64,000 nt of DNA from contig JAKPPT010000068.1 of the NCBI GenBank assembly GCA_029547205.1, positions 105,922-169,921 on the forward strand, written 5' to 3'. How positions within the stretch are numbered: the first letter of the stretch is position 1; each line of letters starts with the position of its first letter. The DNA comes from Spirochaetota bacterium (GTDB taxonomy: Bacteria; Spirochaetota; Spirochaetia; Treponematales; UBA12059). The notes beneath the pieces were generated by a model, which saw nothing but the letters and a program-made list of their open reading frames with translations, did not search any database and was not told the DNA's origin. Positions 22,478 through 61,987 of this stretch are shown here, one piece after another. A program made the position numbers and the translations under genes.

Positions 22478-23524
22478 TTAAGCTTGCTTCCTGCGCTCTT
22501 CCGCTTTTCTGGCAATTCTATTCCATACTGATGCAAGCCCCATCGCTTTCTTTGCAATTGAGAGCGTTTCGCGTGCTTCCTGACGCATGCGCTGTGTTCC
22601 CTCATAGACAATTTCATCAACAAGCCCTTTTTGTGCTTCATAGTATGCTCGTCGTTCACGAATGGGATCAAGAAATGCATTGAGGGCACGTGCAAGCTTT
22701 TGTTTTACTTCAACATCACCAACTTTTCCAGCGCGGTACCGGGTTTTAAGGTCTTCCACCTCTTCTTTATCTGGATTAAATACATCATGGTAAATAAAGA
22801 CAGGGTTCCCCTCAACAGTTCCAGGGATATCAGCACGAGTACGGTTAGGATCGGTATACATAGACATGACACGCTTTTCCACAGTTTTCGGGTCATCAGA
22901 AAGATAGATGGCATTGTTGAGGCTCTTGGACATTTTTGCGTCTCCATCAGTTCCAACAAGGGACCCCTGATCAGAAACCAGTACTTCAGGAATAGGGAAA
23001 ACCTCTCCATATAAATTGTTAAAGCGACGTGCAATCTCACGGGTAATTTCCACATGTGCTACATTGTCTTTGCCAACCGGAACAAGGTGCGCACGAGGAA
23101 GCAGTATATCAGCTGCCTGGAGCACAGGATACCCTAAAAGCCCAAACGGCATTTCTTCAAAACCAGCGCCTTTTGCCATATCTTTTAGACTCGGCAGCCT
23201 GGAGAGACGGGGTACCGTAACAAGGTTCTGGAAAAAGAGACTGAGCTCGATTACTTCCGGAACAGCAGACTGTAGATATATGACACTTTTCTGGGGATCA
23301 ATTCCACAGGCCAGGTAGTCAAGCACTGCTGATCGAACATTATCAGCCAGTTCCTCTATATGCTCCTTCTCAGGTTTTGTAGTCAACGTATGCAAATCTG
23401 CGATAATAAAGAAACATTCATACTCATCCTGGAGTGCTACTCGATTTTTTATAGAGCCTACATAGTGTCCAAGATGCAGTTTACCTGTAGGTCTGTCCCC
23501 TGTTAATATTCGTTTTTTATCCAT
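22478..23524 (-). CDS. trpS: Tryptophan-tRNA ligase
   Basis: This 348-residue class I synthetase has [17 protein letters not shown] at 8-24 (HIGH-type motif) and KMSKSLNN. The ATG at 23524 is preferred over an in-frame GTG six codons earlier because AAGGAG lies 9 bases upstream of it. The codons for GDRP contain an exact GGTCTGTCCCC (23490-23500) on the + strand, but these residues are normal in TrpS. Confidence 0.96.
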
Positions 23525-46709: not shown

Positions 46710-47390
46710 TCAGCTAGTTTTTCCAAATAGCAATTGATATGCAAGTTGCGACCAGGTTTCAAAATAATCCAGTGTGAGTTTTTGTGCAGGAACCCAACGC
46801 CATTGCTCAAGCTCTGCATCGACATCTACAATCTTACTGGCAGAAACCACAAGGCCAATAACCAGTCCAACATGCACTGAACCTACAGCAGAAAGTTCTT
46901 CATTAATGAGCCCATGCATTACGATGTGCGGTATACGCTGTTCAATTCTCCTATCAGTATCATCTAAAACAAGTTTTTGGAACAAGGCAGGAAGCATATC
47001 ATGTAGTGATGGCAGTTCTTCACGTAGCTCTCTCATTGCACCTGAAATAATTATAGAAAAGAGGTCTGTCCCCGTATCTTTTTCAGTCCCCGTATCTTTT
47101 TCATTGATATGCCCACCTATGCCAAGAGAACTAAAACCATGGAGGCGAGTTTCGGAACCTTTTCTATCGTATACAAAAAAATCCCCATGCTCATTTTGCA
47201 CAACGCAATAGGGAATTATCTGTTTGAATGTGCTATCGTGCTCTGCTATATGTCGATCAATAAAACAATAGGGCATAGAACTAAAAATCTTAATAGCCTC
47301 AACAGTACTCAAAGGAATTATACCCGTCTTAAGGTTCACAGCTTGTTCAAGGTCTTTGCGGGCAATACATAAAATTTTTTCATGTTTCAT
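46710..47390 (-). CDS. NUDIX-like hydrolase with an in-frame repeat insertion
   Basis: This protein of about 226 residues is started at 47390 (AAGGA upstream). It has a NUDIX-like GGHINEKD... then AMRELREELP, so the Nudix box is present but interrupted. The insertion EKDTGTEKDTGTD is encoded by an 18-bp tandem duplication joined to the dispersed repeat (47063-47103). The insertion separates GG from RELREE by more than the usual 23 residues, so activity may be changed. The N-terminal half (ARKDLEQAV) is unknown. Confidence 0.7.
   Translation of the reverse strand: MKHEKILCIARKDLEQAVNLKTGIIPLSTVEAIKIFSSMPYCFIDRHIAEHDSTFKQIIPYCVVQNEHGDFFVYDRKGSETRLHGFSSLGIGGHINEKDTGTEKDTGTDLFSIIISGAMRELREELPSLHDMLPALFQKLVLDDTDRRIEQRIPHIVMHGLINEELSAVGSVHVGLVIGLVVSASKIVDVDAELEQWRWVPAQKLTLDYFETWSQLAYQLLFGKTS
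47063..47073 (+). repeat. Dispersed GGTCTGTCCCC repeat inside NUDIX gene
   Basis: An exact core copy lies at the start of a tandem duplication in the NUDIX gene. The flank reads AAGAGGTCTGTCCCCGTATC. Confidence 0.75.
47068..47103 (+). repeat. 18-bp tandem duplication within NUDIX gene
   Basis: Two exact copies of GTCCCCGTATCTTTTTCA (47068-47085 and 47086-47103). On the coding strand this gives EKDTGT twice, keeping the frame. Confidence 0.9.
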
Positions 47391-48167: not shown

Positions 48168-48549
48168 CTCCCAATTTCCTTTTGCATGGACTCATGGGGC
48201 AATCTGGCTCTTACATGATGGAACAATTTATACTGTACCCGGTTTCCATGATGAATGGATTAAACAGCATCAAGATCTTGTACCAGGTTGTACAAATGTT
48301 AGTGATGTAATTCTTACATATCACTGGATTTCAGTCGTAACATACGCAAAAAATTATATCGAAGTAATGATCGATTCGCGTAAAAACATGCAATCAATCG
48401 ATACCGCATTAACCTACCTTGGACTACACCTGGAAAAATGGGAAAACACTCTCTTAATGGCCATGCAAGAAGATTATTACGAAAAAATATCTGTAGAAGA
48501 CTTCAATAACCTGGAAACGCTCAAAATAAAACTACGAGGCTCTGAATAA
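48160..48549 (+). CDS. Hypothetical protein between two RluA paralogues
   Basis: This 129-residue protein starts at 48160 (MSDSQFPFAWTHGAIW), with AAAGGA 8 bases upstream. It is acidic, without helices or signal. It overlaps the first RluA gene and touches the second (TAA and ATG share a base at 48549), so all three are translated together. I do not recognise it. Confidence 0.7.
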   Translation: MSDSQFPFAWTHGAIWLLHDGTIYTVPGFHDEWIKQHQDLVPGCTNVSDVILTYHWISVVTYAKNYIEVMIDSRKNMQSIDTALTYLGLHLEKWENTLLMAMQEDYYEKISVEDFNNLETLKIKLRGSE

Positions 48550-49274
48550 TGCCATTACCGAATAAAAACATAGCAAAATCTCAGGACAAGCGGATAAAAA
48601 AGCCTAAAAATACAACTAGGGGGACAGACCCGCTAATTATGTATGAGGATAAAGATATCATCGCGATTGAAAAACCTGCCGGTATCCCGGTAATTTCACC
48701 TGACAACCGCAAAACACGAAACATGCTAGATATGGTAACGAGGCATATTCAGAAAAAAAACCCAAAAGGCAGGGCTGCTCTTGTACACCGCCTCGATAGA
48801 GATACCTCAGGCATTATGATTTTTGCAAAAAATGCAAAAACAAAGTCAATCCTGATGAGAAATTGGAATACACTGGTACAAAAACGCTGCTATATCGCGC
48901 TTGTTGAAGGAACGCTTCCTCAAGACTCTGGCACCATCGATACCTGGCTCGTAGAACGCAACGCACAAAAGGTACAGCAAGTTCCGCCTCATACACGAAA
49001 AGCTTTGCGAGCCATTACACACTACAGACGATTACAATCTGTACCCGGATTTTGCCTTGTAGAACTCGAACTTGAAACAGGAAGACGACATCAGATACGG
49101 GTACAGATGGCTGGTATAGGCTGCCCAATTGCAGGAGATTACCTCTATGGCGCACAAACAAATCCATTTAACCGGCTTTGCCTCCATGCGTATCTACTTG
49201 TATTCATTCATCCATACACAAAACAGCTTGTAACACTAACAAGCACAGAACATGACTTTAATCTATCAGGTTAG
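48549..49274 (+). CDS. RluA-family pseudouridine synthase (second paralogue)
   Basis: This 241-residue protein has LVHRLDRDTSG with the catalytic Asp, EKPAGIPV and LETGRRHQIRVQMA. A variable N-terminal linker (RGTDPL) is encoded by a copy of the dispersed repeat at 48620-48630. The target base is unknown; two paralogues in one operon suggest different RNA sites. Confidence 0.88.
   Translation: MPLPNKNIAKSQDKRIKKPKNTTRGTDPLIMYEDKDIIAIEKPAGIPVISPDNRKTRNMLDMVTRHIQKKNPKGRAALVHRLDRDTSGIMIFAKNAKTKSILMRNWNTLVQKRCYIALVEGTLPQDSGTIDTWLVERNAQKVQQVPPHTRKALRAITHYRRLQSVPGFCLVELELETGRRHQIRVQMAGIGCPIAGDYLYGAQTNPFNRLCLHAYLLVFIHPYTKQLVTLTSTEHDFNLSG
48620..48630 (-). repeat. Dispersed GGTCTGTCCCC repeat inside second RluA gene
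   Basis: The minus strand reads GCGGGTCTGTCCCCCTAG, matching the full consensus. It encodes RGTDP in the linker before the catalytic domain. Confidence 0.8.
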
Positions 49275-49344
49275 CCTGATATCGTAGCTGAAACAACTGT
49301 ATTCTCCGACTAGAATATTACAGAGAACTACCAGTGCTACCTGA

Positions 49345-49354
49345 GGGACAGACC
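49345..49354 (-). repeat. Dispersed repeat copy (10/11) beside the tandem array
   Basis: The minus strand reads CCGGGTCTGTCCCTCAG; the last core base differs. It lies between the RluA gene and the 60-bp array. Confidence 0.65.
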
Positions 49355-49380
49355 CGGATGCAACCGAATGCAGCTACAAC

Positions 49381-49589
49381 GCCGGACATCTGGCCGGATG
49401 CGCGCCAGAACCATCCGATTAGTTCCGAACACCTGGTTGCGCTGATACATGGCAGGATGCGCGCCTGAGCCGTCCGATTAGTTCTGATGCACCGGGCTGC
49501 GCTGATACATAGCCAGATGCGCGCCTGAGCCGTCCGATTAGTTCTGATGCACCGGGCTGCGCTGATTACATGGCCGGATGCGCGCTCCA
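49381..49589. repeat. GC-rich tandem repeat, 60-bp unit, about 3.4 copies
   Basis: Units begin at 49381 (divergent), 49441, 49501 and 49561 (partial). The copies at 49441 and 49501 differ at only 3 of 60 positions. GC content of the 49441 unit is 37/60 (about 62%), much higher than the surrounding DNA. Each unit contains ATGCGCGCC and CCGATTAGTTC. The array lies between the convergent RluA and DUF72 genes. The frame that runs through it on the minus strand looks spurious. Its function is unknown. Confidence 0.85.
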
Positions 49590-49619
49590 ATACTATTTAA
49601 ATAAACTGAGACAAAGCAA

Positions 49620-50408
49620 TTAATAAACTGGTGTCCTTGCATGAATTAGCGCGGTTAGCTGCTTGGCATTTTTTACAGCGCTTCCACGTGCATGGTTATT
49701 GAAAGCAATAAATAAGACTGCCTTTTGAGCCATTGAAAAAATTTTGGGAATCCAGCTGATTAGTTCACTATCGGTATAGTCGTAGTCATATCTGTTTGTC
49801 GCATCTCCTTCCCACCAGTTCTGAGCATTACGGCCATGCATACGAATATACGCCTTGTTGCCCGTAACAAGGTTCTGAGGTGTCGGAAGACCTCGCAGTT
49901 CAGGTGCATCAACCATAACAAGTCCTGCATTACGCTTATCTAAAGCTTCGTATACACGATCAGTGAACCATTCGGAATTTCTAAACTCCACAAAACAGGG
50001 CACACTGGCTAACATTTGTAGCAGTGATGCAAGATATTGTCTATTTTCCTCTGTATAGTGGAAACTATATGGTAATTGTATGAGTATACCAGCAAGCTGA
50101 TTGTTCTCAGCAAGAGGAGCAATATTCTGCAAAAAAAGCTCAGCATGATTTTTCCAATCAGAACTACGCTCATGAGTAAGTCCTTTATATGCTTTAATGC
50201 TAAATAAAAATGATTTAGGCGTTTTTTGAAGAAGCCTCTGAAGGGCATTTCGAGAAGGCATTGTATAATAAGAAAAATTAAGCTCAACAAATGGAAACTG
50301 AAGGGCATAATATTTAAGATACTCAGACTGAGGAAGTACTTCTGGATAGAGAATCCCTGTCCAATCTTTGTATGAATAACCGCTTGTTCCTATGTAGATT
50401 GGATACAC
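49620..50408 (-). CDS. DUF72-family protein
   Basis: This 262-residue protein matches DUF72 (YecE-like), a TIM-barrel-like family: IYIGTSGYSYKDW, ELNFSYYTMP, FLFSIKAYKGLTH, FVEFRNSEW, IRMHGRN. The start is GTG at 50408 with GGAGGAGG upstream. Function of the family is unknown. Confidence 0.92.
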   Translation of the reverse strand: MYPIYIGTSGYSYKDWTGILYPEVLPQSEYLKYYALQFPFVELNFSYYTMPSRNALQRLLQKTPKSFLFSIKAYKGLTHERSSDWKNHAELFLQNIAPLAENNQLAGILIQLPYSFHYTEENRQYLASLLQMLASVPCFVEFRNSEWFTDRVYEALDKRNAGLVMVDAPELRGLPTPQNLVTGNKAYIRMHGRNAQNWWEGDATNRYDYDYTDSELISWIPKIFSMAQKAVLFIAFNNHARGSAVKNAKQLTALIHARTPVY

Positions 50409-60890: not shown

Positions 60891-60912
60891 TTAAGCATCT
60901 GGTAATCATCCG

Positions 60913-61886
60913 GGTCTGTCCCCTTAGTTTCTTAGTTTTAGTTTCTTAGTTTTTATCTTTAATTTTTCCAAATATATCTAAATCATTTCTAAATTATTTT
61001 AATATTTATTTACTTAAAAGACTAGCTGATTTTGCTTAATTAATACATTCTATATTTTGCATGATAGCACTTTATTTGCATTTTAAATTATATTATATTT
61101 ATAAAAAAATCATCATTATTATACTCGCATTGTTACTCTAAAAAAATAGTATTGAGAAAATTCTTTTTTATTAATTTTCTATACTTATAAATAAAATATA
61201 ATAAAATTCGATTTATGGAATATCATCATCTGACATACATACTTTATATTTATTCATCAGTGCATGTTGATAAATTTCATGAACCCAATCGCTTATCCAT
61301 TTTTTCATAATTTCAAAATATCTCTGATAAAACGCTAGACCAGACCATTCCCAATCATCTGCTTTTTTTACTAATTGTGCTTTTACAGGATTTTCGCTTA
61401 TATATCTAAAACATCGTTCAAAATCAAGTTTGGTCCATAAAATCTCAGATTTATACCGATCTCCCCATAGATGCCCAGAACGATTATGCCTTTTATTATA
61501 TCGAATAGCAACTGTCATAAGTAAACGCTTCATGATATCAGGAAGTTCTAAATCCAGAGTCTTAATTATTAAATGAAAATGATTACTCATAATTGTAAAA
61601 TTCTCAATCTTAAATTTAAGCTCTGCTTGAAGTGCCAAAAGCACATCAATAAATATCATTTTACATGATTTCATCTTTAGCCGATGCTCTCTACTATTAA
61701 CACGCGCAAATACATGATACGTTCCCCCAGGAACAAGCTGACGAGGCTTTCTCATACAAAACTCCTCCTATTTACTGTTGCATTTTAATTGTATATATCT
61801 GCAAAGCTGATCTTTTGCATGCAATAAATTTTGAATAATTTTAAAAACCTTAAACTAATAAAATAGAATCGCTAAGGGGACAGACC
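60913..61886. mobile_element. RAYT element with inverted 15-bp REP-like ends
   Basis: The left end GGTCTGTCCCCTTAG (60913-60927) and the right end CTAAGGGGACAGACC (61872-61886) are perfect reverse complements over 15 bases. They bracket the RAYT transposase gene (61213-61755, minus strand), with AT-rich non-coding flanks of about 285 and 115 bases. No target duplication was identified. The ends are full matches to the dispersed repeat family seen elsewhere in the window. Confidence 0.8.
61213..61755 (-). CDS. REP-associated tyrosine transposase (RAYT, Y1_Tnp)
   Basis: This 180-residue protein begins RQLVPGGTYHVFARVN, typical of RAYT/TnpA_REP. The HUH motif lies in IMSNHFHLIIK, and the Tyr-helix motif NKRHNRSGHLWGDRYKSEI follows, where the catalytic Tyr lies close to this region. 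It nicks and joins single-stranded DNA at REP-type hairpins. It is intact by eye. AGGAG lies at about 7 bases before the ATG. Confidence 0.88.
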   Translation of the reverse strand: MRKPRQLVPGGTYHVFARVNSREHRLKMKSCKMIFIDVLLALQAELKFKIENFTIMSNHFHLIIKTLDLELPDIMKRLLMTVAIRYNKRHNRSGHLWGDRYKSEILWTKLDFERCFRYISENPVKAQLVKKADDWEWSGLAFYQRYFEIMKKWISDWVHEIYQHALMNKYKVCMSDDDIP

Positions 61887-61987
61887 TATTAGTATCGCTT
61901 TATTAGTATCAATATTTTTCGTATATGCTCAAAGTAGTTTTTATGTGTGTTTTGCAGCTTACTAGTATTTCGATAAATTTTTATTTT

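Follow-up and report, generated by a model that had tools for sequence, protein, structure and literature searches.

A GC-rich 60-bp tandem array between two convergent genes of a Spirochaetota bacterium is probably an orphan minisatellite

A short gap between two convergent genes of a Spirochaetota bacterium holds a tandem array of 60-bp units with 61% GC. The array is probably an orphan, non-coding bacterial minisatellite that has grown by local duplication and that has no demonstrated function. It was studied in a stretch of 64,000 nucleotides (the window), which corresponds to bases 105922-169921 of contig 63 (C63) of the host genome, an assembly of 2.65 Mb. At positions 49391-49585 of the window, with no strand assigned, TRF finds a period of 60 bp, 3.2 copies, 88% matches and a score of 304, and this is the only strong array. 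In 300 simulated stretches of 345 bp with matched dinucleotide composition, the score reached a maximum of 68. By this measure the head-to-tail repetition of a bacterial minisatellite is present, although the copy number of the array may be wrong because the genome is an assembly of 151 contigs.

Both the periodicity of the array and its order of divergence are directly visible when the units are aligned. Read on the plus strand, the array begins with a divergent unit 1 of 59 nt (49392-49450), followed by unit 2 of 60 nt (49451-49510) and unit 3 of 61 nt (49511-49571), which carries a 1-nt insertion near its end; a partial unit 4 of 15 nt (49572-49586) stops before the AT-rich flank. An earlier note on this DNA, made from the sequence alone, had described two units with only 3 differences in 60 positions. 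These are units 2 and 3, which are 95% identical and form the most alike pair. The same note had called the neighbouring units more divergent, and the alignment of unit 1 with unit 2 bears this out, with eight substitutions and one 1-nt indel. Two candidate substructures within the unit were rejected: shuffles did as well as a 3 x 20-bp division in 33 of 500 cases, and as well as a 2 x 30-bp division in 66 of 500.

The array sits in a 345-bp gap without coding constraint. To its left lies an rluA-like pseudouridine synthase gene (48549-49274, plus strand; PF00849, E=1.1e-28), and to its right is a convergent DUF72 gene (49620-50408, minus strand; PF01904, E=1.2e-60). GC content is 61.2% over 49381-49589, compared with 39.9% across the 352-kb contig. 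Only 0.06% of the 200-bp windows along the contig are equally GC-rich, and the remaining windows at or above the GC content of the array coincide at least in part with ORFs of 100 aa or more. Together with the TRF score, these gene calls and GC values confirm what had been described as a GC-rich 60-bp array between convergent genes. A replication terminus at the array was considered and rejected, there being no GC-skew switch nearby. Comparison of gene order was also tried as an empty-site test; no DUF72 gene was seen next to the rluA homologues retrieved from relatives, hence no empty site could be read.

Does the unit occur anywhere else? In its own genome it is found at one locus only, and not at the several loci of a dispersed satellite or mobile repeat family. 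Near matches to the 11-bp core of the unit fall to the control level after the removal of the array's own copies, and a low-stringency search of the array-masked contig returned only the dispersed motif described below and chance words. No convincing relative was detected by blastn in 99 relatives, 22 other genomes of the family and 393 genomes of the phylum, a sample in which the genus is represented by the host genome alone. A 60-position sequence model was run over 394 genomes of the order and 393 of the phylum, where only the three copies of the array itself score well. Phages and plasmids yielded nothing significant, and IMG/VR contains no exact match to a degenerate 26-bp core.

Several weaker candidates for kinship were rejected. 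Two relatives (G082 and G401) carry 18-bp tandem arrays that match with per-genome E values of about 3e-4 to 6e-4 in a search of 393 genomes; these matches are at chance level because many genomes were searched and because both sequences are repetitive and GC-rich. The 18-bp arrays differ in composition from the 60-bp unit and have some letters in common with it. The weak matches of the sequence model in genomes of the order are partial and contain no tandem unit. At its left edge the array has a 23-bp match in three genomes of the family; this match derives from a GGGACAGACCCGGATGCA stretch, and the matches to this stretch lie within GC-rich DNA that is similar among the three genomes. It had been stated at the outset that the original reading would fall if a longer gene, conserved among relatives, contained the unit; blastn, sequence-model and peptide searches revealed no such gene.

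How might the array have arisen? The seed would have been a GC-rich stretch of about 60 bp in the gap between the two convergent genes, from which two or more rounds of head-to-tail duplication would have built the array. The latest of these rounds would have given rise to units 2 and 3, with their 3 differences in 60 positions. Replication slippage or unequal recombination may have driven this growth, and the resulting array is likely to have little or no function. A lineage-restricted function would, however, give an identical outcome in these tests. Duplication alone leaves the sharp contrast in GC content unexplained, and the GC-rich seed may have come from outside the present AT-rich background. 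The earlier suggestion that the array is foreign stands as a possibility on GC content alone; no donor was found for it, and rluA-containing stretches sampled from family relatives have 52-73% GC.

The array does have a neighbour that can be assigned to a known kind of element. A dispersed repeat copy had been reported to adjoin it, and this copy is GGGACAGACCC at 49345-49355 on the plus strand, a TIR-like motif of the GGGGWSAS type in which the first G is replaced by A. With up to one mismatch allowed, the motif occurs 13 times in the window against 0.22 expected, and across the genome there are 65 exact copies of the 10-mer GGGACAGACC, compared with 4 of the reversed control. A Y1 (HuH) transposase gene of the TIRYT/RAYT type is located at 61213-61755 on the minus strand (PF01797, E=2.7e-13), TIRYT being short for terminal-inverted-repeat tyrosine transposase. 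Its protein has HFH at residue 59 and YISENP at residue 118, in keeping with the HuH and Y---NP signature of a TIRtron. The gene is flanked by inverted copies of GGGGACAGACC at 60912-60922 (minus strand) and 61877-61887 (plus strand), which is the TIRtron arrangement of GGGGWSAS-type inverted repeats around the gene. Within 15 kb of the transposase gene there are 14 copies of GGGACAGACC against 0.7 expected, and the array lies inside this motif-dense zone. GGGGWSAS is the published signature of many inverted repeats that flank TIRYT genes (PMC3733652; PMC6006769), and in the case of some RAYTs the repeats accumulate close to the gene (PMC2817692). Judged by its motif, by the way in which such copies flank the gene and by the HuH/Y signature of the protein, the dispersed copy beside the array would fit among the TIRYT-type inverted repeats.

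The majority of the genomic GGGACAGACC copies (52 of 65) are internal to ORFs, and the remaining 13 are intergenic. Further copies of the motif in the window are found at 48621, 47062-47072 and 5628; the copy at 48621 falls close to the N-terminal end of the rluA-like gene, where it reads RGTDPL. At least one copy, located at 23489 within the gene of a TrpS-like protein, seems native to that gene. The same contig bears a second gene for a Y1 transposase (C63:309130-309459), which is flanked by inverted copies of GGGACACTCC, likewise of the GGGGWSAS type. The survey of tandem repeats covered contig C63 and a few further stretches. The contig also has a 70-bp tandem duplication (60% GC, 2.1 copies, 96%) that abuts a tRNA gene at about C63:215125-215271. 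Its units echo letters of the tRNA end (GATCGG, GGCGCC), and it is perhaps an integration scar. At about C63:247900-249200 there is a CRISPR-like array with a repeat of approximately 37 bp, CGTTAGAAATGATTGACCTGTAAAAAGGGATTACGAC, and a period of approximately 74 bp.

Could the array instead be the remnant of a gene, or serve a function as non-coding DNA? One candidate would be a minus-strand gene, either decayed or left unannotated, that encodes a 20-residue repeat; it is suggested by the length of the unit, 60 bp being 20 codons, and by a 90-aa frame that remains open across the array (49318-49590). However, changes in this frame are mainly non-synonymous (six, with two synonymous, between units 1 and 2; two, with none synonymous, between units 2 and 3), whereas synonymous changes and a family match would mark a gene for a repeat protein. 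The frame has no match in Pfam or NCBIfam, and in PHROGs matches only at E>=0.1. Its GC content by codon position is 0.49/0.67/0.60, unlike the approximately 0.5/0.38/0.31 of genes in the window, and the sequence upstream of it shows no evident ribosome-binding site. The pseudo-peptide has weak matches in four genomes of the order, but these are unrelated GC-rich DNA without a tandem unit; the 18-bp arrays of the two relatives, which share some letters with the unit, are as expected from chance among 393 genomes. A repeat gene at this locus is highly improbable. Equally hard to credit is a functional non-coding array, be it a structured RNA, a bidirectional terminator or a set of protein-binding sites. 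The position between convergent genes, where no good intrinsic terminator was found, would suit such a role, and the alignment of units 1 and 2 contains one compensatory change from an A-T to a G-C pair. With two unit types to compare, a single such pair carries little weight, however, and single units and the array as a whole, folded as RNA or DNA and on both strands, are at the level of shuffles (z-scores -0.3 to +1.5). Rfam gave no match up to E=1 over 49200-49700. Neither a structured RNA nor the structure-forming satellite of the earlier note is supported by these results. The array contains no inverted repeats, is confined to one locus and shows no conservation, and it does not have the palindromes, the dispersal or the alternating orientation of REP/BIME elements. 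The notion of a protein-binding array gained no positive evidence either, with the unit at one genomic place and no recognised candidate gene adjoining it.

Another alternative ties the array to the transposase: the adjoining motif copy would have been a site of nicking or insertion, and repair or replication restart would have duplicated nearby DNA. This origin is consistent with the distance of only 36 bp between the GGGACAGACCC copy and the array, with the recurrence of the motif edge CCGGATGC within the units, and with the location of the array in the motif-dense zone. In addition, a tandem array lies within 60 bp of 8 of the 65 motif copies against 1.6 expected, when all positions are used as the background (nominal p=2e-4). 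The excess is smaller for the intergenic copies, 4 of 13 against 1.6 expected (p=0.06), a count that includes the very array that prompted the test. Among coding copies it is 4 of 52 against 0.8 expected (p=0.009). In the whole set, one of the arrays counted is common to two motif copies, and the motif is itself part of several of the repeats. Against this origin, the units are free of GGGACAGACC, and the other repeats adjacent to motif copies are short (8-18 bp) and either AT-rich or motif-containing. Examples of short perfect tandem duplications, of 18 bp and 14 bp, occur at 47068-47103 and 60924-60953, where they overlap or abut motif copies. On this evidence it is unlikely that the array is a by-product of the TIRYT element, and the link between motif copies and tandem duplication is only suggestive, a lead and not a result. 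The more general proposal, that nicking by a TIRYT-type HuH transposase at the dispersed motif seeds neighbouring tandem duplications, of which the array would be the largest product seen beside a motif, is a long shot. If tandem arrays turned out to be enriched next to repeats of this kind in further genomes, that would suggest that these domesticated transposases have a mutational effect.

As a minisatellite without a demonstrated function, the array might at best serve to type strains within a lineage of uncultured treponemes. The label of VNTR, which had also been proposed for it, fits in kind, as a minisatellite that is known here from one genome of the genus; variation in length between strains would be the mark of a minisatellite that is still active. 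A by-product of the analysis is a clear TIRYT-type element from a bacterium of the Treponema order, with repeats clustered round the gene for its transposase.

How does the array compare with known systems? With BIME/REP clusters it shares the nature of an intergenic repeat cluster, but it differs in having no palindrome and no alternating orientation, and in not being dispersed. The likeness to the TIRtron/TIRYT system (PMC3733652, PMC6006769) consists of the adjoining motif, its dispersed copies and the inverted copies that flank the Y1 gene; it applies only to the neighbour of the array, whereas the 60-bp units themselves are devoid of GGGACAGACC. In E. coli, minisatellites with units of at least 20 bp and at least 90% identity are reported to make up a small class of variable segments (PMC2884548). 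Although the array is far more GC-rich than its genome and is known from one genome, unlike bacterial minisatellites and MLVA VNTR loci, it resembles them in that its copies lie head to tail and are at least 20 bp long, the two most similar being 95% identical.
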